From: an uncultured Bacteroides sp.
GTDB lineage: Bacteria; Bacteroidota; Bacteroidia; Bacteroidales; Bacteroidaceae
Direction: 5' to 3'
Length of the DNA stretch: 64,000 bases
NCBI GenBank assembly: GCA_944320865.1
Contig: CALUJC010000001.1
Location: forward strand, 61,748-125,747
The position numbers were made by a program, and so were the translations under genes. A model generated the notes under the pieces. That model ran no database searches and was not told where the DNA came from. It was given only the letters and a program-made list of their open reading frames with translations. Below are positions 623-57,291 of this stretch, one piece after another; positions within the stretch are counted from its first letter, which is position 1; every line of letters begins with the position of its first letter.

Positions 623-710
623 ACATCAGTTCAAGACTGAAGCCACATCAGTTCAAGACTGAAGGTACATCAGTTCAAGACTGATGTGGCATCACTTCAA
701 GACTGATGTA
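623..710. repeat. Intergenic array, four 22-nt units
   Basis: Four units start at 623, 645, 667 and 689, each containing catcagttcaagactga or a one-base variant, with an exact 22 nt period. The third unit is a dyad (acatcagt ... actgatgt). The block 661-674 can also pair with 702-715. It lies in the 583-955 gap between two minus-strand genes. It may act as a fabI terminator or as RNA structure. The rest of the gap holds the inverted repeat at 821-899. Confidence 0.8.
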
Positions 711-820
711 CCTTCATTTTAAGAGTATTGGTTATCAAGTATTTACAAAATGCAGGCTGGATATACATTTTTTCTGACATCAAAGAGGCCTGTCAGGATG
801 GTTTTACTCATTGTTTTGCC

Positions 821-899
821 CTGTCATCCTGAACGAAGTGAAGGATCTCTCATTGATTTATGCTATTAGGAGATTCTTCGCTTGCGCTCAGAATGACAG
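821..899. repeat. Inverted repeat of the ctgtcatyctga type
   Basis: The left arm 821-848 (ctgtcatcctgaacgaagtg...) and right arm 871-899 are complementary apart from a few mismatches and one indel. From memory, this sequence type (tcatcctgagcgaagcgaaggatc) is a widely dispersed intergenic repeat in Bacteroidetes genomes. Its role is unknown. It lies just downstream of the fabI stop codon. Confidence 0.75.
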
Positions 900-955
900 A
901 CTATATCTTAATGAAATAGCCAATGATATCCATTCCGACTTTCGGTTTTCCCCTG

Positions 956-1813
956 TCATCCGTAGATGATGTGGCCGTCTTGGTCCATGTATTCCTCCAG
1001 GCCTTTCTGGTAGGTGTTCATTGCCCTAAGGCTCATGCCCATGCTGGAGAAGCCCCCGTCGTGGTAGAGGTTCTGCATGGTGACCTTGCGGGTGAGGTCG
1101 GAGAACATCACGATGCAGTAGTCAGCACACTCGTCGGCCGAAGCATTGCCCAGCGGAGACATGCGGCTGGCAAAGTCGAACAGCTTGTCCATATCCTTCA
1201 CGCCCGAGCCGGCGGTGGTCATGGTGGGCGATTGCGATATGGTGTTTACCCGCACATGGTGCTCGCGTCCGTAGATGTAGCCAAAGCTGCGGGCAATGCT
1301 CTCCAGCAGGGCCTTGGCGTCGGCCATGTCGTTGTAGCCGAAGAAGGTGCGCTGGGCGGCCACGTAGCTCAGGGCCAGTATGGACCCGTATTCGGCCACA
1401 GCGTCAAGCTTCTTGGCCGTCTGTATCATCTTGTGGAAGGAGATGGCGGAGATGTCGAGCGTCTTGCCCAGCATGTCGTAGTCCAGGTCGTCATAAGTGC
1501 GGCGCTTACGCACGTTGGGCGACATGCCGATGGAGTGAAGCACGAAGTCCACCTGTCCGCCCAATACCTCCATCGAGCGGGTGAACACCGTCTTCAAGTC
1601 CTCCACGCTGGTGGCGTCGGCGGGGATAACCTCGCACTGCAGCTTCTCGGCCAGGGCCGACACCTGACCCATGCGCACGGCCACGGGAGTGTTCGACAGG
1701 GTGATGCGGGCGCCATTCTCCACGGCCTTCTCGGCCACCTTCCAGGCAATGGATTGTTCGTTGAGGGCACCGAAGATGATGCCTTTCTTACCTTGCAAAA
1801 GATTGTAACTCAT
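956..1813 (-). CDS. fabI: Enoyl-[acyl-carrier-protein] reductase (NADH), FabI
   Basis: A 285-residue short-chain dehydrogenase of the FabI type, which carries out the last reduction step of each fatty-acid elongation cycle in the cytoplasm. The N-terminal cofactor-binding region has GALNEQSIAWKVAEKA. The catalytic Tyr-x6-Lys motif is seen in YNDMADAKALLESIARSFG (about residues 160-180), preceded by YVAAQRTFFG as in FabI proteins. The ATG at 1813 gives the family start (MSYNLLQGKKGIIFGALN). It appears monocistronic, with a -7 promoter element 35 bp upstream and a repeat array downstream. Confidence 0.95.
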   Translation of the reverse strand: MSYNLLQGKKGIIFGALNEQSIAWKVAEKAVENGARITLSNTPVAVRMGQVSALAEKLQCEVIPADATSVEDLKTVFTRSMEVLGGQVDFVLHSIGMSPNVRKRRTYDDLDYDMLGKTLDISAISFHKMIQTAKKLDAVAEYGSILALSYVAAQRTFFGYNDMADAKALLESIARSFGYIYGREHHVRVNTISQSPTMTTAGSGVKDMDKLFDFASRMSPLGNASADECADYCIVMFSDLTRKVTMQNLYHDGGFSSMGMSLRAMNTYQKGLEEYMDQDGHIIYG

Positions 1814-1848
1814 ACCTATTTACTGTTTAATTACTAAAAATCAGGGCG

Positions 1849-1856
1849 CAAAGATA
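1849..1856 (-). promoter_or_regulatory. Probable -7 box of fabI
   Basis: On the minus strand this reads TATCTTTG, matching the Bacteroidetes -7 consensus TAnnTTTG, 36 nt before the fabI ATG. No clear TTTG -33 box is seen at 19-21 nt, so this is only half of a promoter. Confidence 0.55.
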
Positions 1857-1960
1857 CGTACTTTCTGCCTAAAAACATGAAAAGCAGAGAAAGAATTGCA
1901 CATCGGCACGGCTTTGGGCGCAAATCACTATCTTTGTCCCGGCAATAAACAACGACTAAA

Positions 1961-2635
1961 ATGATGGACAAAATGAAGAAACTCGTGATATTCGACCTGG
2001 ACGGCACGCTGCTCAACACCATTGCCGACCTGGCACAGAGCACCAACCACGCCCTCGAGGAGTTGGGCTACCCCACGCACGACGAGGACTCGTACCGCCA
2101 ACGGGTGGGCAACGGCATCAACAAGCTCTTTGAGCGCGCCCTGCCCGAGGGGGAGAAGACGGAGGAAAACGTGCTGCGCATGCGCCAGGCATTTATACCA
2201 TATTATAATATACATAACGCCGACCGCAGTCTTCCCTACCCCGGCATACCCGCCTTGCTGGCACACCTGCAGCAGCACAATGTCCGCCTGGCCGTGGCTT
2301 CCAACAAGTACCAGGCCGCTACCTCCAAGCTGATAGCGCACTACTTCCCCGCCATCAACTTCGCCGCCGTGCTGGGCCAGCGCGAGGGCATCCCGGTGAA
2401 ACCCGACCCGACTATCGTGCACGACATCCTCCGGGTCTGCCCTGTCCCCCCGGCAGACGTGCTCTATGTGGGCGACTCTGCCGTGGACATGCAGGCGGCC
2501 ATCAATGCCCGGGTCACCTCGTGCGGTGTCACCTGGGGATTCCGCCCCCGTGCCGAGCTGGAAGCCCTCTGCCCCGACCACATCGTGGACCGTGCGGAAG
2601 ACATTGCCCGCCTGGCAGGCTGCCCCATGGAGTAG
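1961..2635 (+). CDS. gph: HAD-family phosphatase, phosphoglycolate phosphatase-like
   Basis: A 224-residue HAD hydrolase, probably cleaving 2-phosphoglycolate or a similar small phosphate ester. HAD motif I is FDLDGTLLNT near the N-terminus, motif II is the AVASN region, motif III the Lys in GIPVKPDP, and motif IV GDSAVDMQAA. The helical cap between motifs I and II has the Gph/PGP layout (VGNGINKLFERAL). The start at 1961 (MMDKMKK) is preferred; an inner ATG at 1964 is possible. A TATCTTTG -7-like box at 1929-1936 lies 24 nt upstream. It is divergent from fabI. The exact substrate cannot be read from the sequence. Confidence 0.85.
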   Translation: MMDKMKKLVIFDLDGTLLNTIADLAQSTNHALEELGYPTHDEDSYRQRVGNGINKLFERALPEGEKTEENVLRMRQAFIPYYNIHNADRSLPYPGIPALLAHLQQHNVRLAVASNKYQAATSKLIAHYFPAINFAAVLGQREGIPVKPDPTIVHDILRVCPVPPADVLYVGDSAVDMQAAINARVTSCGVTWGFRPRAELEALCPDHIVDRAEDIARLAGCPME

Positions 2636-2814
2636 ACACAGGTGGCAAAGCCTGTTCACCATTCTTTACACCAGCCAGGGCGACAGGACGACTATCCCTT
2701 AGCGGATGGAGGGAAACGGGTGTCATATCGTGTACGGGAACGCGCTTTTGTGTGCACGATAACGGCACTTTCGCTACGAAATACACCTATTTACCAAATA
2801 TTATGACTTTTCTG

Positions 2815-2845
2815 TTTGTCCTGTAAAGAAAAGCACTTATTTTTG
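2815..2845 (+). promoter_or_regulatory. Bacteroidetes-type promoter of the IIC-like permease
   Basis: TTTG at 2815-2818 and TATTTTTG at 2838-2845 are separated by 19 nt, a full match to the TTTG-N19-21-TAnnTTTG consensus. The expected start site is near 2852, giving a leader of about 45 nt before the ATG at 2896. Confidence 0.75.
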
Positions 2846-2895
2846 GAGACATTCACAGACACAGATTAAGAAAACAGGTTACAAACATCAACACC

Positions 2896-4299
2896 ATGGA
2901 ACAAGTATTCAGCTATATCATCGGACTGGGGGCGGCTGTCATGATGCCCGTCATCTTCACCATCCTGGGCATTTGCATCGGCATCAAGGCAGGCAAGGCG
3001 CTGAAAAGCGGATTGCTGGTAGGCGTAGGCTTTGTGGGATTGTCCGTTGTCACCGCCCTGCTCACCAGTAGCCTGGGACCGGCGCTGAGCCAGGTGGTGG
3101 ACATCTACGGCCTGCAACTCCGGGTGTTCGACATGGGGTGGCCGGCTGCGGCGGCCGTGGCCTACAACACGTCGGTGGGCGCACTCATCATCCCCGTCTG
3201 TCTGGGCGTGAACATCCTGATGCTGCTCACCAAGACGACGCGGACGGTCAACATAGACTTGTGGAACTACTGGCACTACGCCTTCATCGGAGCGGTGGTG
3301 TATTTCGCGTCAGACAATATATGGTGGGGCTTTTTTGCCGCCATCATCTGCTACATACTCACGCTGGTACTGGCCGACTATACGGCGGACCGGTTCCAGC
3401 GGTTCTACGACAAGATGGAGGGCATCTCCATCCCGCAGCCGTTCTGTGCGGGATTCGTGCCGTTTGCCATGGGCATCAACTGGCTGCTGGACAAGATTCC
3501 GGGCTTCAACCGCCTGAACATCGACGCCGAGGGCATGAAGCGCAAGTTCGGATTGCTGGGCGAACCACTGTTCCTCGGGGTACTGGTGGGGTGTGCCATC
3601 GGTGCCTTGTCGTATAGGAGCGGCGGGGAACTGGTGGACGGCATCCCCAACATCCTGGGCCTGGGCATCAAGATGGGAGCGGTGATGGAACTGATTCCGC
3701 GCATCACGGCGCTGTTCATAGAGGGGCTGAAACCCATATCCGACGCCACGCGCGAACTCATTGCCCGCCGCTTCAAGGGCGCAGCGGGGCTGAACATCGG
3801 CATGAGCCCGGCACTGGTCATCGGGCACCCCACGACGCTGGTGGTGTCGTTGTTGCTCATCCCCGTCACCATCCTGCTGGCGGTGGTGCTGCCGGGCAAC
3901 GAGTTCCTGCCGCTGGCCTCGCTGGCGGGCATGTTCTACCTGTTTCCGCTGGTGCTGCCCATCACGCGGGGCAATGTGTTGAAGACCTTCATCGTGGGGC
4001 TTGTAGTGCTCGTCATCGGGCTGTACTTCGTCACCAACCTGGCTCCCTACTTCACGCTGGCTGCGCAGGACGTCTATGCCCAGACGGGCGACGCGGCAGT
4101 CAACATCCCGCAAGGATTCGAGGGCGGCTCGCTGGACTTTGCCTCCAGCCCCCTGGCGTGGGTCATCTTCCACCTGACGCATACGCTGAAGTACGCCGGC
4201 CCCGCCTTGCTGGTGCTGGGCACGCTGGTGGCCCTGGTGATGAACCGCAGGGCCATCGTGAGGATGCAAACCGGGAAGCGGGACTCTATCCAGCATTAG
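2896..4299 (+). CDS. PTS galactitol-type IIC-like permease (orphan)
   Basis: A 467-residue, very hydrophobic protein with about 10-12 membrane segments, resembling the EIIC component of galactitol-type phosphotransferase systems (GatC). Examples are the opening MEQVFSYIIGLGAAVMMPVI and the conserved loop IPQPFCAGFVPFAMGINW. No IIA, IIB, HPr or enzyme I gene is seen in this window, so it may transport without phosphorylation. Kdu-type and hexuronate genes follow, hinting at sugar-acid or polyol substrates, but this is inference. The last five codons (DSIQH) and the TAG stop lie inside the first unit of the repeat array at 4283-4466, so the native C-terminus may have been replaced. Confidence 0.8.
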   Translation: MEQVFSYIIGLGAAVMMPVIFTILGICIGIKAGKALKSGLLVGVGFVGLSVVTALLTSSLGPALSQVVDIYGLQLRVFDMGWPAAAAVAYNTSVGALIIPVCLGVNILMLLTKTTRTVNIDLWNYWHYAFIGAVVYFASDNIWWGFFAAIICYILTLVLADYTADRFQRFYDKMEGISIPQPFCAGFVPFAMGINWLLDKIPGFNRLNIDAEGMKRKFGLLGEPLFLGVLVGCAIGALSYRSGGELVDGIPNILGLGIKMGAVMELIPRITALFIEGLKPISDATRELIARRFKGAAGLNIGMSPALVIGHPTTLVVSLLLIPVTILLAVVLPGNEFLPLASLAGMFYLFPLVLPITRGNVLKTFIVGLVVLVIGLYFVTNLAPYFTLAAQDVYAQTGDAAVNIPQGFEGGSLDFASSPLAWVIFHLTHTLKYAGPALLVLGTLVALVMNRRAIVRMQTGKRDSIQH

Positions 4300-4466
4300 A
4301 TAGAGACTCTATCCAGTATTAGATAGAGACTCTATCCAGCATTAGATAGAGACCCTATCCAGTATTAGATAGACACCCTATCCAGTATTAGATAGACACC
4401 CTATCCAGTATTAGATAGACACCCTATCCAGTATTAGATAGACACCCTATCCAGTATTAGATAGAG
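4283..4466. repeat. Intergenic array, eight 23-nt units
   Basis: Eight near-identical units start at 4283, 4306, 4329, 4352, 4375, 4398, 4421 and 4444. Each contains tctatccagtattagataga or a close variant, with arms tctatc/gataga. Units 4-8 carry ccctatcc in place of ctctatcc, showing stepwise duplication of variants. The first unit overlaps the end of the upstream gene. A 60 bp gap then leads to kduI. Confidence 0.9.
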
Positions 4467-4526
4467 AGCCGGGATAGGACAGGACAAGATGGGATATAAG
4501 ACGTAAAACTTAAATAACAACAGAAT

Positions 4527-5447
4527 ATGAAGACATTAGCAACCGCAATCGTGATGGGCGCCGTGGCCACAGCCGCCACCGCCCAAGTGAACTACCAGAT
4601 GCAGGTGGCCTGCAACCCGCAGGACGTGAAGACCTACGACACCGAGCGCCTGCGCGCCAGCTTCCTGATGGAGAAGGTGATGGCGCCCGATGAAATCAAC
4701 CTGACCTACTCCATGTACGACCGCTTCATCTACGGCGGGGCCATGCCCGTGCAGAAGGTGCTGGAGCTGGACACCATAGACCCGCTGAAGGCCGACTACT
4801 TCCTGGAGCGCCGCGAGCTGGGCGTCATCAACATCGGCGGCCCGGGCGTGGTGACGGTGGATGGCCAGGAGTATGAACTCGGTTTCAAAGAAGCGCTCTA
4901 CGTGGGGCGCGGCAAGCGGCAGGTGACCTTCCGCAGCAAGGACAGCGCACAGCCGGCCAAGTTCTACCTCAACTCGGCCACGGCACACCGGGAGTACAAG
5001 ACGCAGCTCGTCACCATCAGCGGCCGCAAGGGTTCGCTCAAGGCCAACTCCTTCCCCGCCGGGAAGATGGAGGAGAGCAACGACCGCGTCATCAACCAGC
5101 TCATCGTGGCCAACGTCTTGGAGGAAGGGCCCTGCCAACTGCAGATGGGACTGACCGAGCTGAAGCCCGGCAGCGTGTGGAACACCATGCCCGCCCACAC
5201 CCACAGCCGACGCATCGAGGCCTACTTCTACTTCCAGGTGCCGCAGGACAACATGGTGTGCCACCTCATGGGCGAGCCGCAGCAGGAGCGCCTGGTGTGG
5301 ATGAAGAACGAGCAGGCCATCATGTCGCCCGAGTGGTCCATCCACGCTGCCGCCGGCACGAGCAACTACTCCTTCATCTGGGGCATGGCCGGCGAGAACC
5401 TGGACTATAACGACATGGACAAGATAAAGTACACCGACATGCGCTAA
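4527..5447 (+). CDS. kduI: 5-keto-4-deoxyuronate isomerase with a signal peptide
   Basis: A 306-residue KduI (4-deoxy-L-threo-5-hexosulose-uronate ketol-isomerase), which interconverts the ketouronate released from unsaturated uronides on the pectin/glycosaminoglycan route. The metal-site region has [15 protein letters not shown] (about residues 227-241), with a further His in [21 protein letters not shown] (split: [10 protein letters not shown] and FIWGMAGEN). The usual family length is about 280. The extra N-terminus [20 protein letters not shown] looks like a cleavable signal peptide, so the enzyme may act in the periplasm. No in-frame Met lies between the signal and VNYQMQ, which supports this start. 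exuT starts 11 bp downstream, so the two are probably co-transcribed. Confidence 0.9.
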
Positions 5448-5458
5448 CCCCCGCCGCC

Positions 5459-6910
5459 ATGAAAGACAATGCACGTAACTCCGCCTCCGCGCCGATGACC
5501 GGCTTCCGCTGGACCATCTGCGCCATGCTGTTCTTTGCCACCACCGTCAACTACCTGGACCGCCAGGTGCTGTCGCTCACGTGGGACGAGTTCATCAAGC
5601 CCGAGTTTCATTGGGACGAATCGCACTACGGCACCATCACCGCCGTGTTCTCCTTCGTATATGCCGCCTGCATGCTCTTTGCCGGGCGGCTCATCGACTG
5701 GCTGGGCTCCAAGCGCGGCTACCTGTGGGCCATCGGCATCTGGTCGGCCGGGGCATGCCTGCACGCCCTGTGCGGCATCGTCACCGAGCACTGCGTAGGC
5801 CTGCACACTGCCGCCGAGCTGGCCGGGGCTACGGGCGACGTGGTGGTGGTGATTGCCACCGTCAGCATGTACTGCTTCCTGGCGGCGCGGTGCGTGCTGG
5901 CCCTGGGCGAGGCGGGCAACTTCCCTGCCGCCATCAAGGTGACGGCCGAGTACTTCCCCAAGAAAGACCGCGCCTTTGCCACCTCCATCTTCAACGCCGG
6001 GGCGTCGATAGGCGCACTGGTGGCCCCGCTCACCATTCCGCTGCTGGCCAAGGCCTGCGGGTGGGAGTTGGCGTTCATCATCATCGGCGTGCTGGGCTTC
6101 GTGTGGATGGGCTTCTGGGTGTTCCTCTACAGCGCGCCGGCCAAGAGCCGCCACGTCAATGCCGCCGAGCTGGCCTACATTGAGCAAGACAGCCGCGACG
6201 GGCAACAGGAGGAACAGCATCCGGCCAGGGAGGAGAAGCCGATGAACTTCATCCAATGCTTCCGCTACCGGCAGACGTGGGCCTTCGCCCTGGGCAAGTT
6301 CATGACGGACGGCGTGTGGTGGTTCTTCCTCTTCTGGATACCGGCCTACCTGAACACGCAGTTCGGCATCAAGACGTCCGAGGGGCTGGGCATGGCGCTC
6401 ATCTTCACGCTGTATGCCATCACCATGCTGTCCATCTACGGCGGCAAGCTGCCCACCATCATCATCAACCGCACGGGGCTGAACCCCTACGCGGCACGGA
6501 TGAAGGCGATGCTCATCTTTGCCTTCTTCCCGCTGGTGGTGCTGCTGGCGCAGCCGCTGGGCACCGTGTCGCCCTGGTTCCCCGTGGTGCTGATAGGCAT
6601 CGGCACGGCAGCCCACCAGTCGTGGTCGGCCAACATCTTCTCCACCGTGAGCGACATGTTCCCCAAGTCGGCCGTGGCCACCGTCACCGGCATAGGCGGC
6701 ATGGCGGGGGGCTTGAGCTCGATGCTGATGCAATACGGCGCGGGCGAGCTGTTTGTCTATGCGGGCGAAACGGGGCTGACGTTCATGGGCTTCGAGGGCA
6801 AGCCGGCGGGCTACTTCATCATCTTCTGCATCTGCGCCGTGGCCTACCTGGCCGGGTGGTGCATCATGAAGGCGCTCGTGCCGCGCTACAAGCCCATCGT
6901 GACGGACTAA
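5459..6910 (+). CDS. MFS transporter, hexuronate (ExuT-like) family
   Basis: A 483-residue, 12-segment major facilitator protein of the anion:cation symporter group that includes ExuT and GudP. Motifs: NYLDRQVLSLTWDEF near the N-terminus, LGEAGNFPAAIKVTAEYFPK in the middle of the N-half (a hallmark of hexuronate/glucarate transporters), and DGVWWFFLFWIPAYLN in the C-half. It probably imports hexuronates or their deoxyketo derivatives across the inner membrane by proton symport. It follows kduI by 11 bp, which supports a shared uronate role: if KduI is periplasmic, this carrier would import its product. The substrate is inferred. Confidence 0.85.
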   Translation: MKDNARNSASAPMTGFRWTICAMLFFATTVNYLDRQVLSLTWDEFIKPEFHWDESHYGTITAVFSFVYAACMLFAGRLIDWLGSKRGYLWAIGIWSAGACLHALCGIVTEHCVGLHTAAELAGATGDVVVVIATVSMYCFLAARCVLALGEAGNFPAAIKVTAEYFPKKDRAFATSIFNAGASIGALVAPLTIPLLAKACGWELAFIIIGVLGFVWMGFWVFLYSAPAKSRHVNAAELAYIEQDSRDGQQEEQHPAREEKPMNFIQCFRYRQTWAFALGKFMTDGVWWFFLFWIPAYLNTQFGIKTSEGLGMALIFTLYAITMLSIYGGKLPTIIINRTGLNPYAARMKAMLIFAFFPLVVLLAQPLGTVSPWFPVVLIGIGTAAHQSWSANIFSTVSDMFPKSAVATVTGIGGMAGGLSSMLMQYGAGELFVYAGETGLTFMGFEGKPAGYFIIFCICAVAYLAGWCIMKALVPRYKPIVTD

Positions 6911-6916: not shown

Positions 6917-6990
6917 GCAGAGTGGCTGCTTAAGTCTAAGCAGAGTGGCTGCTTAAGCCTAAGCAGAGTGGCTGCTTAGGCCTAAGCAGC
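6917..6990. repeat. Intergenic array, three 23-nt units ending in a perfect palindrome
   Basis: Units start at 6917, 6940 and 6963 (gcagagtggctgcttaa...). The last part, 6971-6990, is the perfect 20 bp palindrome gctgcttaggcctaagcagc. The array begins 6 bp after the exuT stop, between convergent genes, so a transcription-termination or RNA-protection role is plausible. Confidence 0.85.
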
Positions 6991-16783: not shown

Positions 16784-17327
16784 CTTTGGCAATTCTTTAT
16801 CCAACATTTCCATAGCTTCCCTCTACTTTCCTAAAATAAAGGGAAGAAAAATATGGACATTTTCCCATCACACAAAATATTCCAACAAAAATTACATTTC
16901 CGCTTGCCCTTTCTCCCCTTTTCCCGTTGCACCATGTTCGCATCTTTTACGCTTCTTGTTCGCTTCTATAGCGAGGGGGAAAATTCGAACATGGTACGAA
17001 CTTGGTACGAACCGGGTAGGTAGTTGGTATATACAGGACATATATTTGTTAAGTAAAAGTATTGACACATAAATAGTTACGAGCATTACGGAGAGATATT
17101 TTTGTAAAGAAATAGAAAACAGAAGCTCTCTAATTGTAAATATTTAAGAGTACACGATTAAACAATAGAGGGGAATAATACATCCTTACAAACAAGGCTT
17201 ACAGAAGGAAAAGTCCCCAAAAGGAGCCGGAGCAGCATGGTGACAGGCCCGATTTTTCCCCAGTTAGGAAAAAAATATTCCCCAGTCAGGAAGGGGGCGC
17301 TGCCTAACTGGGGAAGAAAAATAGCCT
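16784..17327. other. Gene-free gap upstream (3') of the fimbrial genes, with a dispersed repeat
   Basis: No convincing gene. 16957-17021 (tgttcgcttctatagcga ... cgaacatggtacgaactt) is shared, in inverted orientation, with 37642-37707. Near 17245-17310 there is a second short dyad (cccagttaggaaaaaaa / cctaactgggg), just beyond the stop of the last fimbrial gene, which may be its terminator. Confidence 0.6.
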
Positions 17328-25795: not shown

Positions 25796-25888
25796 TTCTT
25801 CTTGACTACTTTATTCTTGACCACTTGACTTCTTGACTTCTTAACTTCTTTATTCTTGACTTCTTGACTACTTGACTTCTATCTACTA
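25796..25888. repeat. Low-complexity repeat tract (cttgacttctt type)
   Basis: A tract of degenerate copies of cttcttgacttcttaactt fills the whole gap between two fimbrial genes and begins at the stop codon of the Mfa2-type gene. The same sequence type forms the 33 bp inverted repeats at 34238-34750. Confidence 0.75.
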
Positions 25889-32752: not shown

Positions 32753-32840
32753 CGCGCAGGCGTAAGAAGACTGCCACGGTAGCGTTTCAAAGCCAGCGTG
32801 CTGGCGTAGGAAGGCTGGCGCGCTGGGGTTACTACGCTGG
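32753..32840. repeat. Intergenic array, four degenerate 22-nt units
   Basis: Related positions (gcgt or equivalent) fall at 32760, 32782, 32804 and 32826, a 22 nt period. The palindrome gccagcgtgctggc lies at 32793-32806. The array sits in the 32491-32929 gap between divergent genes, some 60-150 bp upstream of the hpt -7 box. Confidence 0.65.
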
Positions 32841-32903: not shown

Positions 32904-32911
32904 TACTTTTG
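32904..32911 (+). promoter_or_regulatory. -7 box of hpt
   Basis: TACTTTTG matches TAnnTTTG, 18 nt before the ATG at 32930. It overlaps a TTG that could be mistaken for a start of a longer frame, which argues for the ATG start. Confidence 0.6.
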
Positions 32912-32929
32912 CACCCAAATACAATAAAA

Positions 32930-33481
32930 ATGCAGATGGACAACACCATACAAATCAAAGACAAGACATTTGTCGTCTCCATTCCGGAGGCAGACATCCT
33001 GCGGGAGGTGGAGCGCGTGGCGCAGGAAATAAACCGCGACCTGGCGGGGAAGAACCCGTTGTTTCTGAGCGTGCTGAACGGCTCGTTCATGTTCACCGCC
33101 GACCTGATGAAGCGCATCACCATTCCCTGCGAAGTGTCGTTCGTCAAGCTGGCCTCCTACCAGGGCGTGGCCACCACGGGCAAGGTGAAGGAGGTGATAG
33201 GCATCAACGAAGACCTGACGGGACGCACCATCGTCATCGTGGAGGACATTGTGGACACGGGTCTGACCATGCAACGCCTGCTGGAATCGCTGGGCACGCG
33301 CCGCCCCCAGGAGATACACATCGCCACCCTGCTCGTGAAACCCGACAAGCTGAAGGTAGACCTCGACATAGAATACGTGGCCATGCGCATACCCAACGAC
33401 TTCATCGTGGGCTACGGACTGGACTACGACGGGCTGGGGCGGAACTTCAAGGACATTTATACCGTAATCAATGAAGAATGA
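32930..33481 (+). CDS. hpt: Hypoxanthine phosphoribosyltransferase
   Basis: A 183-residue purine salvage enzyme that makes IMP (and possibly GMP) from PRPP and the base in the cytoplasm. The PRPP-binding motif is IVIVEDIVDTGLTMQ (about residues 97-111), and VSFVKLASYQG is the flexible-loop region. The start is ATG 32930 (MQMDN) or 32936 (MDN); the upstream TTG overlaps the -7 box. The last codons (AAT GAA GAA TGA) coincide with a dispersed aatgaagaatgaag repeat, so the tail NEE may be acquired. Confidence 0.92.
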   Translation: MQMDNTIQIKDKTFVVSIPEADILREVERVAQEINRDLAGKNPLFLSVLNGSFMFTADLMKRITIPCEVSFVKLASYQGVATTGKVKEVIGINEDLTGRTIVIVEDIVDTGLTMQRLLESLGTRRPQEIHIATLLVKPDKLKVDLDIEYVAMRIPNDFIVGYGLDYDGLGRNFKDIYTVINEE

Positions 33482-33655
33482 AGAATTTAGTAGTCAGTAG
33501 CCAGTAGATGGTAGATAAAACAGTAGATATAATTCGTTAAGCAGTATAGAATGCTTTGCAGAACAGATTATTTTTTCTATCCATTCTATCTACCGACTAC
33601 TGACTACTAACTACTGACTACTAAATTCTAAATTCTTCATTCATAATTCTTAATT
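33470..33655. repeat. Long imperfect inverted repeat starting at the hpt stop codon
   Basis: The left side 33470-33517 (aatgaagaatgaagaattta, then gtagtcagtag units) can pair with 33590-33645 (tatctaccgactactgact... attcttcattcat). It fills the whole hpt-adk gap. Built of short direct repeats (agtagtcagt type). Could form one long RNA hairpin. Confidence 0.75.
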
Positions 33656-33661: not shown

Positions 33662-34234
33662 ATGCTGAACATCGTAATTTTCGGCGCCCCCGGCTCAGGC
33701 AAGGGGACGCAAAGTGAGAGAATCGTAGAAAAGTATGGCATCAACCACATCTCTACCGGAGACGTGCTGCGTGCCGAAATCAAGAATGGCACCGAGCTGG
33801 GCAAAACCGCCAAGCAGTACATCGACCAAGGTCAGCTGCTGCCCGATGAGCTCATCATCGACATCCTGGCCAGCACACTGGACGGGCTGAAGGACTCGAA
33901 GGGCGTCATCTTCGACGGCTTCCCCCGCACCATCGCTCAGGCCGAGGCATTGAAGAAGATGCTGGCCGAACGCAACCAGGCCGTGAGCGTGATGCTCGAC
34001 CTCGAGGTGCCCGAAGACGAACTGATGCACCGCCTCATTCTGCGCGGACAGCAAAGCGGACGTGCCGACGACAACGAGGAGACCATACGCAAGCGCCTCA
34101 CCGTGTACCACAGCCAGACGGCTCCCCTCATCGACTGGTACAAGCAAGAAGGCCTTTATGCCCACATCAACGGCCTGGGCGACCTGGAGCGCATCACGGC
34201 TGATATTTGCGAGGCTATTGATAAAACTTTGTGA
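33662..34234 (+). CDS. adk: Adenylate kinase
   Basis: A 190-residue enzyme, AMP + ATP to 2 ADP. The P-loop is FGAPGSGKGTQSERIV (about residues 6-21); the AMP site has STGDVLRAEI, and FDGFPRTIAQAEAL is the family hallmark. The lid region is the short, Zn-free type, fitting the length of about 190. Start ATG 33662 directly follows the repeat-filled gap. Second in the hpt-adk-obgE run, now separated from obgE by a repeat-flanked insert. Confidence 0.97.
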   Translation: MLNIVIFGAPGSGKGTQSERIVEKYGINHISTGDVLRAEIKNGTELGKTAKQYIDQGQLLPDELIIDILASTLDGLKDSKGVIFDGFPRTIAQAEALKKMLAERNQAVSVMLDLEVPEDELMHRLILRGQQSGRADDNEETIRKRLTVYHSQTAPLIDWYKQEGLYAHINGLGDLERITADICEAIDKTL

Positions 34235-34237
34235 GAA

Positions 34238-34750
34238 GGTGAGAAGTCAAGAAGTTAAGAAGTTAAGAAGTCAAGAAGTTAAGAAATTAAAGGAGTTAAG
34301 GAGTTGAGAAGAAATGGTGGCACAATCTTTCGAAGAATTGACTGTATGGAAGAAGGGACATCAATATGTCTTATGCATTTATCGCATCACTAAAAGCTAT
34401 CCCAAAGAGGAAATGTTTGGGTTGGTCAATCAGATACGGAGAGCAGCAGCTTCCATCACAGCCAACATTGCAGAAGGATTTGTCAGAATAGGGAAAAAAG
34501 AAAAACTCCGCTTCTACAACATTTCACAAGGCTCTCTTGAAGAGACAAGAAATTTCTTGATTCTTTCAAAAGACTTAGGTTATATCACAGAAAATGACTA
34601 CTTGAAATTGAAACAAGATGCTGCAGAAATCAGCAAAATGCTCAAATCTTATTGCCAAACCATTATTAGCAGTATGTAAATTATCAAAAGGCAGAAGTTA
34701 AGAAGCTTTGCATCCTCCTTCTTAACTTCTTAACTTCTTGACTTCTTACC
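34238..34750. mobile_element. Possible mobile cassette with 33-bp inverted repeats carrying a four-helix-bundle gene
   Basis: The left end 34238-34270 (ggtgagaagtcaagaagtta...) and right end 34718-34750 are complementary at 32 of 33 positions. Between them lies one gene (34314-34679). The element starts 3 bp after the adk stop and ends 19 bp before obgE. No transposase is present; movement would have to be in trans. The repeats are low-complexity (aagaagttaag units), so independent growth of repeats cannot be ruled out. Confidence 0.45.
34314..34679 (+). CDS. Four-helix-bundle protein (S23/IVS family)
   Basis: A 121-residue protein of the 23S-rRNA-intervening-sequence type: SFEELTVWKKGHQYVLCIYR at the start, EEMFGLVNQIRRAAASITAN in helix 2 and IAEGFVRIGKKEKLRFYNIS. 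Relatives include Avd of diversity-generating retroelements, a basic pentamer that binds nucleic acid. The function of stand-alone copies is unknown. It is enclosed in 33 bp inverted repeats and sits between adk and obgE, which suggests insertion. Codon use is A/T-rich relative to its neighbours. Confidence 0.85.
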   Translation: MVAQSFEELTVWKKGHQYVLCIYRITKSYPKEEMFGLVNQIRRAAASITANIAEGFVRIGKKEKLRFYNISQGSLEETRNFLILSKDLGYITENDYLKLKQDAAEISKMLKSYCQTIISSM

Positions 34751-37453: not shown

Positions 37454-37641
37454 CGCATACACCCGTCAAAAACAACATCAGGAGCGCACTTTCCTACAAT
37501 AATAAAAATATTGAACAACCTCTCTAAACGCTTTTTCCAAGAAAAAGTGCCGGAATCCGCCATCACCATCATCATATATTACTGAATATCACGCACATAC
37601 AATACAAAACAAGTACAAGTCCGCACTTTAGTCGGGTCTCC

Positions 37642-37707
37642 TTCGTACCAAGTTCGTACCATGTTCGTTCCAGGTTCGCTCTTTACCCGTCGCTATAGAA
37701 GCGAACA
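37642..37707. repeat. Second copy (inverted) of the dispersed intergenic repeat
   Basis: This stretch (ttcgtaccaagttcgtacca... ctatagaagcgaaca) is the reverse complement of 16957-17021 with a small number of differences. It lies in the 37421-37841 gap between divergent genes; no gene is seen there apart from promoter elements. Confidence 0.75.
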
Positions 37708-40306: not shown

Positions 40307-41251
40307 ATGAAAGCATTAACTAAAACAGATTACCATTTCCCCGGACAGCAAGCTGTCTATCACGGGAAAGTACGCGACGTGTACAACATCAACGGCGAGA
40401 AGCTCGTCATGGTGGCAACGGACCGCATCTCGGCCTTCGACGTCATCCTGCCCAAAGGCATTCCCTTCAAGGGACAGATATTGAACCAGATTGCCGCGAA
40501 GTTCCTCGACGCCACGACGGACATCTGCCCCAACTGGAAGCTGGCCACGCCCGACCCGATGGTGACGGTGGGCGTCTTCTGTGAGGGCTTCCCCTTGGAG
40601 ATGATTGTGCGCGGCTACCTCTGCGGCTCGGCCTGGCGTGCCTACAAGAGCGGCGTGCGCGAAATCTGCGGCGTCCGCCTGCCGGAGGGCATGAAGGAGA
40701 ACCAAAAGTTCCCCACCCCCATCATCACCCCCACCACCAAGGCCGAAATAGGCGAGCACGATGCCGACATCTCCAAGGAAGAAATCCTGAAGCGCGGCCT
40801 CTGCACGCCCGAGGAATACGCCATCCTGGAGGACTACACCCTGCGCCTCTTCGAGCGCGGCACGCAGATTGCCGCAAAGAGAGGACTCATCCTGGTGGAC
40901 ACGAAGTACGAGTTCGGCAAGCACGACGGCAAGATTTACCTGATGGACGAAATCCACACGCCCGACTCCAGCCGCTACTTCTACAGCGAGGGCTACGAGG
41001 AGCGTTTCACGAAGGGCGAGCCGCAACGCCAGCTCTCCAAGGAGTTCGTGCGCGAATGGCTTATGGACAACGGCTTCCAAGGCAAGGAAGGACAGCAGGT
41101 GCCCGAGATGACGGACGAGATTGTGAAGAGCATCAGCGACCGCTACGTGGAGCTCTTCGAACACATCACGGGCGAGAAGTTCGTGCCGCAGGACACGGAG
41201 GACATCGCCACGCGCATCGAACGGAATGTAACGAATTATCTTAATGCCTGA
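40307..41251 (+). CDS. purC: Phosphoribosylaminoimidazole-succinocarboxamide synthase
   Basis: A 314-residue SAICAR synthetase, step 8 of purine synthesis (CAIR + Asp + ATP). Motifs: [40 protein letters not shown] (nucleotide site), [13 protein letters not shown] and [20 protein letters not shown], then [10 protein letters not shown]. It is the long form (about 310) common in Bacteroidetes and eukaryote-like PurC. It starts 7 bp after phoH. Confidence 0.97.
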
Positions 41252-41316
41252 TTTCTGTCCGGCAAGCCCCGGCACCCCCTCTACAGATGCTTGTAGGGCC
41301 GATTCCGGGGCTTCTG

Positions 41317-41404
41317 ACATCAGACGGCGTTTCATCCTGCATCAGACGGCGTTTCATCCCACATCAGACGCCGTTTGATCCTACATCAAACGCCGTTTGA
41401 TGTC
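41317..41404. repeat. Intergenic array, four 22-nt units
   Basis: Units start at 41317, 41339, 41361 and 41383 (acatcagacggcgtttcatc and variants). In the last unit, compensating changes make a near-perfect palindrome (acatcaaacg-c-cgtttgatgt). It lies between purC and menG. Confidence 0.85.
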
Positions 41405-41449
41405 ACATCATCCCGGCAGGCATCTTATTTTGTAAATTAAAAGGAAACA

Positions 41450-45325: not shown

Positions 45326-45645
45326 TCAAATGGTCTCCAGTAGCAATAAATAGCTTAGAAGAAGTTTATAACTTCTATCTGGCTCAAGCCAATGCAACCG
45401 TAGCCCACCGGATTATTATGGAAATCCGTCAAGAGGTGCGCTATCTGCTCATTTTCCCTACCATCGGAAGTGTACAAGAACAAAACGGGAAAGCAACACA
45501 ATATCGGTATATCCTCAAGCAGCACCATAAAATACTCTATACCATAAGACAAGACTGCATTATCATTGCTTATGTTTGGGATACCCGGCACAACCCTAAA
45601 ACCCTTGCTAAGATTTTAAAACAACAAATAGACAAAGAAGTATGA
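45319..45645 (+). CDS. RelE/ParE-superfamily toxin
   Basis: A 108-residue protein of the ParE/RelE type: IKWSPVAINSLEEVYNFYLA, the middle RQEVRYLLIFPTIGSVQEQN, then YRYILKQHHKILYTIRQDCI and VWDTRHNPKTLAKIL (the ParE C-terminal DxRxxP motif is seen as DTRHNP). It probably inhibits gyrase or translation. It overlaps the antitoxin by 7 bp and the downstream lemA start by 4 bp (ATGA), so lemA may be translated from its message. Confidence 0.85.
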   Translation: MVIKWSPVAINSLEEVYNFYLAQANATVAHRIIMEIRQEVRYLLIFPTIGSVQEQNGKATQYRYILKQHHKILYTIRQDCIIIAYVWDTRHNPKTLAKILKQQIDKEV

Positions 45646-46226
45646 AGAAAACAACCACCCTTATCATCATCGCCATCATTGCCGTCATTACCATCTGGAC
45701 AGTGTGGGGCTACAACGACCTCGTCAGCATGGACGAGAACGTAAGCAGCCAGTGGGCCAACGTGGAGACGCAGTACCAGCGCCGCGCCGACCTCATCCCC
45801 AACCTGGTGAACACCGTGAAGGGCTATGCCGCCCACGAGCAGGAAACGCTGAAAGGCGTAGTGGAAGCCCGCAGCAAGGCCACGCAAATCAAGCTGGATG
45901 CCTCCGAACTGACGCCGGAGAAACTGGCACAATTCCAGCAGGCACAAGGCGAACTGACCACGGCCCTGAACAAGCTGCTCGCCATCCGCGAAGCCTATCC
46001 CGACCTGAAAGCCAACCAGAACTTCCTGGAACTGCAAGCCCAGCTGGAAGGCACGGAGAACCGCATCAACGTGGCGCGCAAGAACTTCAACGACGCCGCA
46101 AAGGATTATAACACCGCCATCCGCCGCTTCCCCAAGAATATCCTGGCCGGAATGTTCGGCTTCAACAAGCGCGCCTACTTCGAAGCACAGGAGGGTGCCG
46201 AGGTGGCTCCGACGGTGGAATTCTGA
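45642..46226 (+). CDS. lemA: LemA family protein
   Basis: A 194-residue LemA protein: N-terminal membrane anchor (LIIIAIIAVITIWTVWGYND) followed by the long helical domain with VSSQWANVETQYQRRADLIP, NLVNTVKGYAAHEQETL and the C-terminal FNDAAKDYNTAIRRFPKNIL. LemA proteins pair with TPM proteins; the partner lies at 44096-44998. The start overlaps the toxin stop by 4 bp, so expression may now depend on the toxin-antitoxin promoter. An array starts 2 bp after the stop. Confidence 0.95.
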   Translation: MKKTTTLIIIAIIAVITIWTVWGYNDLVSMDENVSSQWANVETQYQRRADLIPNLVNTVKGYAAHEQETLKGVVEARSKATQIKLDASELTPEKLAQFQQAQGELTTALNKLLAIREAYPDLKANQNFLELQAQLEGTENRINVARKNFNDAAKDYNTAIRRFPKNILAGMFGFNKRAYFEAQEGAEVAPTVEF

Positions 46227-46227: not shown

Positions 46228-46315
46228 GTAGTATCACCACCATGGTAGTGTAGTATCGCTACCGTGCTGGCGTAGTATCACTGCCCCGGTGGCGTAGTAT
46301 CGCTACCGGGGCATT
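46228..46315. repeat. Intergenic array, four 22-nt units
   Basis: gtagtatc occurs at 46228, 46250, 46272 and 46294, an exact 22 nt period. Individual units hold short dyads (gtag-tatcg-ctac). It begins 2 bp after the lemA stop, between convergent genes. Confidence 0.85.
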
Positions 46316-51503: not shown

Positions 51504-51644
51504 AAACGGACGCGCATCCGGTTAGAAACGGACGCGCGTCCAGTTTGAAACGGACGCGCGTCCATTTTTGAACAGATGCGCATCCGTTTCCAAAGAGACC
51601 GTTATCCGCCTGCGGAGGGACAGTTATCCGCCTGCGGAAACGCC
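51504..51644. repeat. Two adjacent 22-nt arrays (four units and two units)
   Basis: Units at 51504, 51526, 51548 and 51570 contain aaacggacgcgcgtcc or variants (GGACGCGCGTCC is a palindrome). After a 9 bp gap, units at 51601 and 51623 contain gttatccgcctgcgga. Both have a 22 nt period although their sequences are unrelated. They lie 3' of the luxR-type gene. Confidence 0.85.
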
Positions 51645-51747: not shown

Positions 51748-51753
51748 ATGCTG

Positions 51754-51802: not shown

Positions 51803-51806
51803 TTAA

Positions 51807-51883: not shown

Positions 51884-51892
51884 TCCCGCTAT

Positions 51893-53950: not shown

Positions 53951-53963
53951 CTCAACAGCCTGC

Positions 53964-55124
53964 TTAAAACGGTTCGTATTTGTCGTTGTCCACCGCCTTC
54001 ACGCCCATACACTCCATCTCAATCAGCCAGCCCGGACGGCACACGGGCGCCAAAGTGATGACCTTGGGCGTGTGCGGGAAGCGTTCGTCGTACATGGCTT
54101 TCACTACCGGATAGTCGGCCGGGTCACGCAGGTACACTATCATCTGCCCTACGTCCTCAAAGGAACATTCCGCTTCGGCCAGCAAGGCCTCCACGTTCTC
54201 CCACATGCGCCTTGTCTGCTTGCGGATATCGCCCGGATACATCACCTCGCCTTTGTTATTGATGCTTGCCGTGCCCGAGATGAATACATGCCTGCGGTCG
54301 CCGTAGTCCACATACGTTCCCCGCTCGAAAGTGACGCCGTACTCGTAGGTGGGATTCAGGTGAGTAGGCGCATAGAGGTAGCGCATCTGCCCGGGTTGCA
54401 GCCCGTCTACGGCATACGCATCCATCTGCACCAGCACCTTGGGGTCGGCATGGCGGCCTCCGATGCCCGTGCTGGCTATGTAGTGGGTCTTCTCTGTCAG
54501 ACCTTGGGTGACGAACACCTCGCTGCGTGCCTTCACCACACCGGCGTAGTTCACGTCCACATTCTGCACGAAAAACCACGTGCGGACACAGTTGGCCGCC
54601 AGCCGGCAGCCCTGTTCCACGAGTTGCATCACATAGTCGTTCAGCAACAGGCGTGTCTGGTACTCCGAATTGGCGGCACGGTTGAAGGCTCCCCCGCTCC
54701 ACAAGTGGCGGTAAGTCCCATGCTTCACCTCGAAAAGTCCGTTGTGAAGCACCTGCGTCTTTATGCCGGTTTGCAGGTAAGCCCACAAGGCCACTTTCGA
54801 GCCATTCAAGGGCGGTTGCTCCACGATGGACAATGCACAATCAGACCCTTCCGTCGTAATGGCCTGCAAGAGGTCGGCCTGATTGGCGGCATCACTCAGG
54901 AAGTAGCGTTTGAACACAGCAATGGAGCCTTTCAGTTCATGCGCCAGCAAGGCATCGTAGGCATTCAGCACAGCATTCAACTGCTCTTCATACGTACCTT
55001 CCGGCCAAGTGCAATGAATCATCACGTGATATTCCGAAACATTGCTCCTTCCGGCGAACTTGAATATCTCTGTCAGCGTCTTGTCTGACTGTATGGTTTG
55101 TTGTTTGTTATCGTTCATCGACAT
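53964..55124 (-). CDS. Two-domain protein: chorismatase-like N-terminus and RidA/YjgF C-terminus
   Basis: A 386-residue protein. The C-terminal ~150 residues are a YjgF/RidA domain (HVFISGTASINNKGEVMYPG, RKQTRRMWENVEALLAEAEC, VICRPG-like PVCRPGWLIEMECMGVKA). The N-terminal ~230 residues, with VRTWFFVQNVDVNYAGVVKA and YIASTGIGGRHADPKVLVQM, resemble the trimeric fold of the FkbO/Hyg5 chorismatase group, though catalysis is unproven. No signal peptide: cytoplasmic. Between ccsBA and a haem-c lipoprotein gene its role is unclear; from memory, similar genes stand next to ccsBA in other Bacteroides. Start 55124 or 55118. Confidence 0.75.
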   Translation of the reverse strand: MSMNDNKQQTIQSDKTLTEIFKFAGRSNVSEYHVMIHCTWPEGTYEEQLNAVLNAYDALLAHELKGSIAVFKRYFLSDAANQADLLQAITTEGSDCALSIVEQPPLNGSKVALWAYLQTGIKTQVLHNGLFEVKHGTYRHLWSGGAFNRAANSEYQTRLLLNDYVMQLVEQGCRLAANCVRTWFFVQNVDVNYAGVVKARSEVFVTQGLTEKTHYIASTGIGGRHADPKVLVQMDAYAVDGLQPGQMRYLYAPTHLNPTYEYGVTFERGTYVDYGDRRHVFISGTASINNKGEVMYPGDIRKQTRRMWENVEALLAEAECSFEDVGQMIVYLRDPADYPVVKAMYDERFPHTPKVITLAPVCRPGWLIEMECMGVKAVDNDKYEPF

Positions 55125-55148
55125 CTAATTATGGTTATGTACAACATA

Positions 55149-55877
55149 TCAAGGCTGTGCGCCATTGTCTATCCAGTCTTCTATCAAATTCAGCAAAACG
55201 GTCTTCCGCTTTGCATCAAGAATGTCCGTATGCGGATGGCCGGTATCCCCGTCGCGACTCAACACCAGGTAGAGGAAACTGCTGCCCGCATCCCCCGGAC
55301 TTACCCGAAGCATCTCGGGATTGCATGTAGCCGGTTGGTTCACCAAGGCATCATAGCTGAGCCCTTCGGTAAGATACAAGCCGGCGGCTGCCCCTCCCGC
55401 ACTGGCTCCGTGGCAAGCGGCACAGCTTGGGGTAAAGACCTCATCCTGCACTACGCCGCACATACCCACATCCTGTGCTCCGACATCCATGGTTACCACA
55501 TTGTCTACTGCAGCAGAAACATCGGTCTTGCAGAAAGTATGTACCCGACGGCGCAGGCGGTCGGTGATGCAAAACTCCAGGCTGGTCACTTCATCCGTAA
55601 TGCCGGACATTTCGACCGTCACTTCACCGCCGTCCGTAGAGGGGTTGGGCACAATTTTCGAGACGACGGCATACGCGCTTTCATCGTTGAACCCGGCCAC
55701 TACCAGGCTATAGCCACTGGGCCAGTCGCCTATGTTGCTGATGCTGCCCGTCATTTTCAGGCTGAGTCCTTCCTGCGGAATAACGACCTGTTCTTCGTAA
55801 ATCCGTCCGTCATCGCACGAGGAAAGCAACCCCATCAAGGGCAGGCATAGCGATAGAATCAAAACTTTCTTGTTCAT
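55149..55877 (-). CDS. Mono-haem c-type lipoprotein
   Basis: A 242-residue lipoprotein (signal MNKKVLILSLCLPLMGLLSS, then Cys in the lipobox). Residues ~30-140 are beta-rich without an assigned domain; the last ~90 residues hold one haem-c site, CAACH, inside EVFTPSCAACHGASAGGAAA, with a possible distal Met in EMLRVSPGDAGSS. It could pass electrons to or from the di-haem oxidoreductase upstream in the operon. The start is the ATG at 55877; the longer frame is not supported. It precedes the RidA-like gene by 24 bp. Confidence 0.85.
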   Translation of the reverse strand: MNKKVLILSLCLPLMGLLSSCDDGRIYEEQVVIPQEGLSLKMTGSISNIGDWPSGYSLVVAGFNDESAYAVVSKIVPNPSTDGGEVTVEMSGITDEVTSLEFCITDRLRRRVHTFCKTDVSAAVDNVVTMDVGAQDVGMCGVVQDEVFTPSCAACHGASAGGAAAGLYLTEGLSYDALVNQPATCNPEMLRVSPGDAGSSFLYLVLSRDGDTGHPHTDILDAKRKTVLLNLIEDWIDNGAQP

Positions 55878-55908
55878 ATGTGTATGTCCTTTCCTAAGAA
55901 AATGCTTG

Positions 55909-57123
55909 TCAGAAAGAGTATTGCAGCAATACCGTGGCCGAGTGGGTGGCAATGCCCAGGTCATCGTTGTCACGGTCGAGTTGGGTGTCGTGTCCCGTGC
56001 GCCCGATGAACTGGTACATGGCCTGCAACTTCAGGTTACAACCCTTGAAGAAGTAATTCACACCCACGGCCGGCATGTTGAGGAAGCCGTTGGTGTCCAC
56101 GCCGTTCCGGTTGAAGAAGTCATAACGGGCAGCCAGCTGCACGCGGGGAGCCACAAAGTAACCACCCTGTACGTATCCGCCCAGAAAGTTGTAAGACTTG
56201 TCTATCTTCTGCCGCTTGGTGAAGCCCACGTTCATCCAGTAAGCCTCGGCGGCCAGATAGAGTCTGTTCTTCAGCCAGGCAAACTCCAAGCCCACGCGGG
56301 TATCGTTGGTACTCTCGCTTTCACTCTCCACGTTGACGGAGGCCGAAAGGCCGAACATGATTTTGTCTTCATGCAAACGGTTGGGATTGCCCTGCGTGGA
56401 AGGCATCACCCCCTTGGGCATATACGTCAGGCGGCCGGCATAAAGCAGGGAGGGAATGTGCCAATCGTCGCTCAGTGTCTTTCCGGCGGTATTGACCGAT
56501 GCGCCCGTGCCGTTGAACAGGCCTACTTCATAGCCGAACTTGCCTGCCAGCAGGCCGTGGATTTCCACCCCCAGGTCGAAACCGGTGCCGATGTTGGGCA
56601 TCACCGCATTCAGCGAATAGGGCAGGATGACGGCAGCCGTCAGCGAAGTAGGCAACACGGGCATCAGCGTTTCACCCAAGGTAGTGAGGTAGGCGTGGGA
56701 GAAGGGTGTCTTGAACTTGCCCACGCGGATGGCAAACTGCTGCTTCAACGCCACGTCGAACCAAGCTTGCTGCAACAACGCGCCCCCGCTGGCCGCCGCA
56801 TTGATGGAGAGGTTGAACGACACCTTCTCGAACGCCTTGCCCGTAAAGCCAAGCACGGCATAGGGCACCGCGAAGCCGGAGTTGGCCACGTTGTCCTGAT
56901 TGTAAGCCTTGTCCAGGCCCTCATCGTCATACCAGTTGAAGTTTCCGCTGGTCTGCACCAACAGGTAGGGCTTGAACACAAAGTCGCCCTTCTTCGTTTC
57001 GATGGAGAATCCCTCGCGTCCGGCAAGCGACACCACGCCGTTGTCCGTATCTTCCTCGTATTGCGCCATGGCGGCCAGAGGGAGCAAAGCCGCCAAAAGC
57101 ATCATGGCTATCTTTTTCATCAT
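55909..57123 (-). CDS. Outer-membrane porin-like protein
   Basis: A 404-residue beta-barrel protein with signal peptide (MMKKIAMMLLAALLPLAAMA, cleaved before QYEED) and a C-terminal Phe (ATVLLQYSF), typical of outer-membrane insertion. Alternating strands such as VRLQLAARYDFFNRNGVDTN-like RVQLAARYDFFNRNG and GLSASVNVESESES suggest a 16-strand OprO/OprP-type porin. Its substrate may be a metal complex, judging from the operon, but this is inference. The start at 57123 is chosen by the signal peptide; 57141 and 57162 are alternatives. Confidence 0.8.
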   Translation of the reverse strand: MMKKIAMMLLAALLPLAAMAQYEEDTDNGVVSLAGREGFSIETKKGDFVFKPYLLVQTSGNFNWYDDEGLDKAYNQDNVANSGFAVPYAVLGFTGKAFEKVSFNLSINAAASGGALLQQAWFDVALKQQFAIRVGKFKTPFSHAYLTTLGETLMPVLPTSLTAAVILPYSLNAVMPNIGTGFDLGVEIHGLLAGKFGYEVGLFNGTGASVNTAGKTLSDDWHIPSLLYAGRLTYMPKGVMPSTQGNPNRLHEDKIMFGLSASVNVESESESTNDTRVGLEFAWLKNRLYLAAEAYWMNVGFTKRQKIDKSYNFLGGYVQGGYFVAPRVQLAARYDFFNRNGVDTNGFLNMPAVGVNYFFKGCNLKLQAMYQFIGRTGHDTQLDRDNDDLGIATHSATVLLQYSF

Positions 57124-57203
57124 TGAATTGTTTTGTTTCATCATTTTCGTTTGTAAGTACATGTTTTTAAGAGACTTATTACTTTATTTTTTCTTCACCC
57201 AAA

Positions 57204-57291
57204 ATAAAGTGTTACTTTACTCGGAGTAAAGCGTTACTTTATTCCTAATAAAGCGTTGCTTTATTCCGAGTAAAGTAACGCTGCATTCCTT
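57204..57291. repeat. Intergenic array, four 22-nt units, inside the iron/haem operon
   Basis: Units start at 57204, 57226, 57248 and 57270 (rtaaagygttrctttaytcc type), an exact 22 nt period with self-complementary taaagcgtta/actttat parts. It lies between the di-haem oxidoreductase stop and the porin start, so it may split the operon or set transcript levels. Confidence 0.85.

Follow-up and report, generated by a model that had tools for sequence, protein, structure and literature searches.

The window analyzed here is a stretch of 64,000 nucleotides (nt) from an uncultured Bacteroides sp., bases 61748-125747 of contig 1 of a 3.03 Mb draft genome (labelled G000; its sister genome is labelled G015). 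Among its genes, purC and ubiE included, lie short tandem arrays with a period of 22 or 23 nt, many of which hold a dyad in each unit (Table 1). The original prediction had named eight such sites, and the arrays were confirmed at all of them: for the nine stretches considered (the eight sites plus 51601-51644), the claimed lag was the best by z among lags 10 to 40, with fewer lags testable in the 44-nt stretch 51601-51644; in 5000 shuffles, no lag ever did as well. Simple autocorrelation along the window returned five sites at lag 22, two at lag 23 and low-complexity tracts at other lags, while the same scan of ten block-shuffled windows returned no site at any lag. The array at 32753, the most diverged, was missed by scans at 75% identity and by Tandem Repeats Finder (TRF), which recovers every other named array.

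Table 1. Tandem arrays of the window, with the identity between units, the dyad and its permutation test
Position	Array	Identity	Dyad	Setting or family	TRF
623..710	22-nt, 4 units	0.88 (lag 22)	CATCAGT-TCAAG-ACTGATG, p=0.010	one family-mate, L053:12364-12458	yes
4283..4466	23-nt, 8 units	0.96	CTATC..GATAG, p=0.015		yes
6917..6990	23-nt, ~3 units	0.94	p=0.005	directly after MFS transporter gene 5459-6910	yes
32753..32840	diverged 22-nt, 4 units	0.56 (lag 22), weakest of the set, still best lag			no
41317..41404	22-nt, exactly 4 units (88 nt)	0.85	0/200 permutations	between purC and ubiE	yes
46228..46315	22-nt, 4 units	0.71	not significant, p=0.10		yes
51504..51591	22-nt, 4 units	0.82	GGACGCGCGTCC, 0/200 permutations		yes
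51601..51644	two further 22-nt units	0.77	another dyad, TCCGC-CT-GCGGA		yes
57204..57291	22-nt, 4 units	0.74	TAAAGC-GTT-GCTTTA, 0/200 permutations	between two minus-strand genes	yes

The description of the arrays as intergenic needs a small correction at two sites, where the first unit of the 4283 array overlaps the last codons of a PTS EIIC-like gene (2896-4299) and the 46228 array starts right after the stop codon of a LemA-family gene (45642-46226). The 32753 array lies upstream of a phosphoribosyltransferase gene that begins at about 32909-32930, and the 51504 array sits, as judged by eye, between two terminator-like hairpins of convergent genes.

Period, range and anatomy of the arrays

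The pattern is genome-wide in G000 and present in many relatives of the Bacteroides group. In 864 kb of G000, the autocorrelation scan, which like all fixed-lag scans is blind to arrays with internal insertions or deletions (indels), found 49 sites without any filter for genes (38 at lag 22, 10 at lag 23 and 1 at lag 44), from which about 170 would be expected in the whole genome; in 338 kb of G015, lag 22 had 23 sites and lag 23 had two. In a set of 80 named purC loci (1.46 Mb), lag 22 accounted for 43 sites, all intergenic and none genic, the next intergenic lags being 7 (17 sites), 21 (4 sites) and then 9, 23, 24, 42 and 44 (3 sites each), and one or more intergenic arrays (lag 21, 22, 23 or 44) were present at 41 of the 80 loci. 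Over 159 loci, a set that takes in some duplicates, lag 22 occurred at 97 intergenic sites vs one genic site and lag 23 at 19 intergenic sites. TRF placed 92 intergenic arrays at period 22, 18 at 23, 15 at 21 and 14 at 44, and at most six at any other period. The sharp peak at 22-23 nt, with mostly unrelated units, by which the original prediction was to be judged is thus seen in the genome sample and in its relatives.

Outside this group, lags 22, 23 and 44 yielded a single site in 270 kb of other Bacteroidales families (two stretches of that sample being without readable bases), one in 400 kb of other Bacteroidota and none in 50 kb of E. coli; the site in the other Bacteroidales families is a 44-nt repeat of seemingly another kind. 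An array is present, though, at two Parabacteroides-labelled loci (L134 at lag 22, L137 at lag 21), so the range is not Bacteroides alone. Within the group the density is uneven, with nine arrays in 91 kb of one genome (G018, mostly 23 nt) vs one in 120 kb of another (G020). The arrays do not stem from draft assembly of mixed DNA, because they occur in records titled as named strains, among them those of B. cellulosilyticus, B. timonensis, B. rodentium, B. pyogenes and B. caecigallinarum. The purC product of the window shares 94-98% identity with its nine nearest matches, which are labelled uncultured or Candidatus Bacteroides and include, at 95%, the isolate Mediterranea sp. An20; the first named Bacteroides species come next at 88-89%, which places the window within the Bacteroides group.

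Three consecutive dyads were counted in 28 of 85 arrays and four in another 28. Among 70 arrays selected for clear dyads, the identity of neighboring units is 79-90% at 2-8 bp from the dyad centre, 72% at the centre itself and 61-63% in the linker, which by inspection is roughly 3-8 nt long. The claim that nearly all units hold a dyad proved too strong: against column-permuted arrays of G000 and G015, the dyad was significant at p<0.05 in 32 of 53 arrays and at p<0.01 in 24. In some cases, unrelated dyads stand at the same 22-nt spacing within one array (L024 near 14650, by eye). Away from the arrays, six of eight dyad patterns were never found in the G000 and G015 samples, and the other two gave seven strays in total, two of which stand 22 nt apart. 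Compared with the 22-nt class, the 23-nt class tends to be longer (median 4.4 vs 3.8 units) and more homogeneous (identity 0.86 vs 0.79).

A phased RNA structure had been offered as one explanation of the common period, and tandem hairpins in 3' untranslated regions, serving termination or mRNA stability, were considered as a rival reading; in codirectional gene pairs, the median distance from the upstream stop to the array start is indeed about 61-66 nt. Since such hairpins would act in a transcript, tolerance of G.U pairs is expected on the sense strand, and in 172 terminator-like hairpins of the same loci, which served as the positive control, the ratio of sense G.T to A.C mismatches was 110:41. 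No such bias is present in the arrays, where the ratio was 44:53 for all codirectional arrays and 34:38 for those less than 80 nt behind a codirectional stop codon. Moreover, 16 of 122 arrays (the set after merging of duplicates, with L079 standing in for the identical 41317 array of the window) lie between divergent genes, as a rule some 100 nt or more away from either start; the position of the 51504 array between two terminator-like hairpins also speaks against RNA hairpins, and the window had no Rfam match at gathering scores. The RNA-hairpin reading was therefore rejected on the wobble test and is, of all the explanations considered here, the one we hold least probable; the dyads look DNA-level.

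Families, orthologous spacers and turnover

That the unit sequence differs completely from site to site holds for most units, but families recur within a genome. Among 51 arrays from the first samples of G000 (first 464 kb) and G015, array-to-array BLAST gave 18 pairs within G000, 46 within G015 and none between the two genomes at the threshold used. These arrays form 24 components. They are not copies of one known repeat family, the outcome that would have told against the original prediction, and 16 of them are singletons, at least one of which (L047:16175) gains a mate in a later sample. The 46228 array has six relatives and with its seven members forms the largest family of the first G000 sample, and by eye the 32753 array resembles it too; the 51504 array has three relatives, the 57204 array two and the 623 array one. 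The privacy of families is not absolute, as two units of a G015 family are found in G000 (L233:13886 and 13908).

A correspondence between the sister genomes is hinted at by one family of G000, F1. At four places where an F1-like array in G000 has an array beside the same gene in G015, the latter belongs to the largest G015 family in all four cases, two of the G000 arrays being assigned to F1 by eye and one pair sharing a single flanking gene. As this family makes up 10 of the 25 sampled G015 arrays, four out of four is weak; seven further F1-like sites of G000 have no adjacent G015 array, nor does the one matching F2 site. A likeness of F1 to the largest G015 family, noticed by eye, failed the test (no detectable similarity, z -0.8), and other family pairs scored z 3 to 5 (F4 with GB and GD, F3 with GC, F5 with GB, F2 with GA), values that palindromes may inflate.

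The spacer between purC and ubiE allows orthologous arrays to be compared. In five genomes it measures 198-199 nt and contains four 22-nt units, and the five arrays, four of them distinct, align without gaps over 88 columns, of which just 27 are invariant. The dyad arms covary, with both sides changed in 13 of 40 pairs and a score of 0.321 vs 0.004-0.116 for slid structures, in a test for which the structure was taken from the window's own copy, 69% of cells pair and four rows are distinct. At the same spacer, G015 and L081 have arrays of other sequence. Similarly, an array of other sequence precedes the phosphoribosyltransferase gene of the 32753 array in G015 (found by hand; the G015 contig begins just before it), and the G015 spacer that matches the 57204 site holds a different array, GGAACC..GGTTCC.

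The array of L079 is identical to that of the window over its whole length. Per 60-nt bin of window positions 40560-41420, the two sequences are 86-96% identical along purC upstream of the array (from 40560), 100% across it and 63-91% downstream, as if a recombination tract had ended at the array.

Units are gained or lost in blocks. The spacer of L113 is exactly 44 nt longer than that of L107, with two identical 44-mers (by eye), and the identity of units falls with their distance (0.78, 0.71 and 0.65 at one, two and three units), a gradient that may partly reflect degenerate end units. Together with the covarying arms of the orthologous site, these data support in part the proposal that a process copies whatever palindrome is present. 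An automatic comparison of 24 collinear spacers of G000 and G015 found arrays of unrelated sequence in both genomes at two, an array in G000 only at four, at least one of which (L229/L032) is matched by a weaker array of G015 that falls short of the threshold, in G015 only at one and in neither at 17. In L226:14280-14560, the reading frame seems by eye to stop at the beginning of the array, about eight codons short of its counterpart in the sister genome (L028:14100-14250), as if the gain of the array had replaced the end of the gene.

Interpretation and comparison with known elements

No described element was found that fits the arrays. The nearest is BrickBuilt, a 23-nt minisatellite inside a miniature inverted-repeat transposable element (MITE) of Porphyromonas gingivalis, which is likewise a Bacteroidales element with tandem 23-nt repeats without spacers, always intergenic, with predicted stem-loops and several copies per genome (PMC4596501). 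BrickBuilt is one sequence family with a leader, a tail and terminal inverted repeats, present at 19 loci in one strain (PMC4596501), whereas the arrays studied here have many unrelated sequences, mostly 22 nt long, in about four units, and we found neither a leader or tail nor terminal repeats common to them in general. In common with BrickBuilt, they are intergenic tandem repeats of about 23 nt (lags 22 and 23, 97+19 intergenic sites vs 1 genic); a common unit sequence is absent among the 51 arrays with their 24 components, no general excess of terminal inverted repeats was seen in the three sets searched and no shared leader or tail in G000 and G015, some F4 arrays, L214 and L217 being exceptions by eye. 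Unlike most, two arrays of one family, L217:4482-4579 and L214:17670-17762, stand between inverted repeats, of 14 nt in one case and of about 27 nt, with mismatches, in the other.

It is very improbable that the arrays are remnants of miniature transposons like BrickBuilt. Such an origin would agree with their intergenic, tandem occurrence at several loci per family, with presence and absence between sister genomes, with the flanking inverted repeats of L217 and L214 and with an end sequence common to some F4 arrays (by eye). Flank inverted-repeat scores of at least 9 also have a slightly higher frequency in G000 (0.06) than for mismatched flanks (0.02), but overall the scores stay near the level of mismatched flanks (means of 5.84 vs 5.49, 5.14 vs 5.53 and 6.08 vs 5.44 in the three sets), the 80-nt flanks in G000 and G015 gave three short matches between arrays, none of them a shared leader or tail, and one short empty site (L046/L254) has no evident target duplication by eye. 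For want of general flanking inverted repeats and of a common leader or tail, the MITE reading was rejected.

Other known repeats share single traits with the arrays. Repetitive extragenic palindromic sequences and their mosaics (REP/BIME), which are associated with RAYT (Y1) transposases, are short extragenic palindromes in genome-specific families, as are the arrays, which differ by their fixed 22-nt tandem register and the near absence of solitary palindromes (seven strays over eight patterns in two genome samples). A search for the Y1 transposase domain (PF01797) had no match in G000 or G015, both of which are incomplete (94.8% and 84%), and the REP/RAYT reading was rejected on this ground. 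Arrays of clustered regularly interspaced short palindromic repeats (CRISPR) likewise consist of dyad repeats with variable parts between them, and differ from the present arrays, which have a period of 22, short linkers and repeats that mostly differ from locus to locus. Phased repeats about two helical turns apart also make up cooperative operator or iteron arrays (some iterons being about 22 bp), with one sequence per system and a cognate protein, whereas about a third of the arrays sampled here have a sequence of their own. One array compared with phages and another with plasmids had no match, and no paper among the literature matches listed, all of them open-licence, described a common 22-nt period in Bacteroides.

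The reading that we prefer, tentatively and with somewhat less than even confidence, is that the arrays are palindromic minisatellites, a DNA-level element defined by its geometry (about four dyads of almost any sequence, with centres 22 bp, or about two helical turns, apart), the units of which are built and homogenized by hairpin-templated copying in a register set by a DNA process indifferent to sequence. Units would be added, and arms homogenized, by template switching and slippage associated with hairpins or cruciforms, which would keep palindromes palindromic whatever their sequence and from which array-specific palindromes, strand symmetry and a gradient of similarity are expected. That the register is usually kept, and that about four units are favored, would point to a DNA transaction that responds to the spacing of dyads, so that a protein or a replication or repair machine, reading spacing and not sequence, may hold the register near 22 and favor about four units. 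Arrays are kept almost solely outside coding sequence, 22 not being a multiple of 3, and are less frequent next to promoters. In a further-reaching form, which we consider possible but on balance doubtful, the arrays constitute a class of elements recognizable by geometry only, with tens to well over a hundred arrays per genome of the Bacteroides group, kept by a dedicated sequence-indifferent DNA process while each array and species rewrites its own palindromes within a fixed architecture.

Several observations weigh against this preferred reading. No enzyme or binding protein behind the arrays has been identified, and the 22-nt ruler is left unexplained by anything shown here. Nor is the register absolute: in three close relatives (L074:10996-11070, L076:10959-11068 and L078:1719-1779), the arrays at the purC spacer have dyads of the CCCCACGCGTGGGGTA type and a period of 24 nt, which slightly lowers our confidence. 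Where purC and ubiE are neighbors, an array between them (lag 21-23 or 43-45) was counted in only 7 of 60 loci, and most have none. Twenty-one of the 53 arrays lack a significant dyad, ten of them belonging to one G015 family (GGTACGGGTAAGCACGGGCGGA) and five to the family of the 46228 array, and the sharing of families among dispersed loci is unexplained by copying inside one array alone. TRF rows contain indels in 16 of 92 period-22 arrays vs 8 of 21 arrays of other periods, which lends weak support to indel intolerance of the former. The limits attached above to the covariation test and to the similarity gradient belong here as well.

The main rival, in our judgment rather unlikely, is a neutral minisatellite, in which hairpin-prone sequence duplicates in 22-nt steps through a mutational ruler, and the arrays are read by nothing and stay wherever they do no harm. 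It would account for the near absence of genic 22-nt arrays (1 of 98), as expected if they cause frameshifts, for the greatest likeness between neighboring units, for the 24-nt arrays at the same purC spacer and for a density that is lowest between divergent genes, at roughly 2 per 10 kb vs 3.7-5.1 elsewhere (rough figures, the denominator including some duplicate loci). It is harder to reconcile with the five genomes that have kept four units and a spacer of 198-199 nt although, of the four besides the window's, three have a changed array sequence, and with the small number of near-perfect 22-nt arrays (2 of 70 at 95% identity or more), whereas young arrays should be perfect. Improbable, in turn, is a set of operator-like arrays in which every family has a dimeric DNA-binding protein of its own that binds it cooperatively and changes its specificity fast, the dispersed arrays following suit. 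Conserved arms with free linkers, families common to dispersed loci of one genome and the occurrence of the largest G015 family at all four places matching F1-like arrays are what it predicts; the latter point is blunted by the size of that family, by the F1-like sites without a G015 counterpart and by the lack of similarity between the two families. Single sites hardly exist, and a sequence-specific protein for each family becomes less likely because about a third of the sampled arrays are singletons.

Repeat families are normally recognized by shared sequence, and for this reason similarity searches do not group these arrays. If it is spacing rather than sequence that is maintained, the palindromic arrays would point to an undescribed DNA transaction of the Bacteroides group, be it binding, copying or folding, whose ruler spans about two helical turns, and would serve as its genome-wide readout; neutral arrays, for their part, would still reveal a mutational ruler worth knowing.

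Other short-period repeats

Two further kinds of short repeat were noticed in the same DNA. Low-complexity repeats of 7-8 nt, of the CTTCTTGACTACTTAA type, occur in intergenic DNA of the window (25798-25887, 33583-33655, 34234-34311 and 34718-34748), and lag 7 is the second commonest intergenic lag over the 159 loci (45 sites). Direct-repeat arrays with a period of 11 nt, mostly of one sequence family (TTCGTACCATG and its complement), are found in the window at 37632-37678 and 16935-17029 and elsewhere at L035:13046, L040:10261, L048:3851, L051:8211, L220:1527, L221:14543, L229:11355 and L233:18605; lag 11 has 13 sites in 864 kb of G000, part of them outside this family. These arrays often stand beside a CGCTATAGAAGCGA-like dyad and, where genes were called, at least 81 nt from the neighboring genes, several of them between divergent genes, and they look like the binding region of a regulator.

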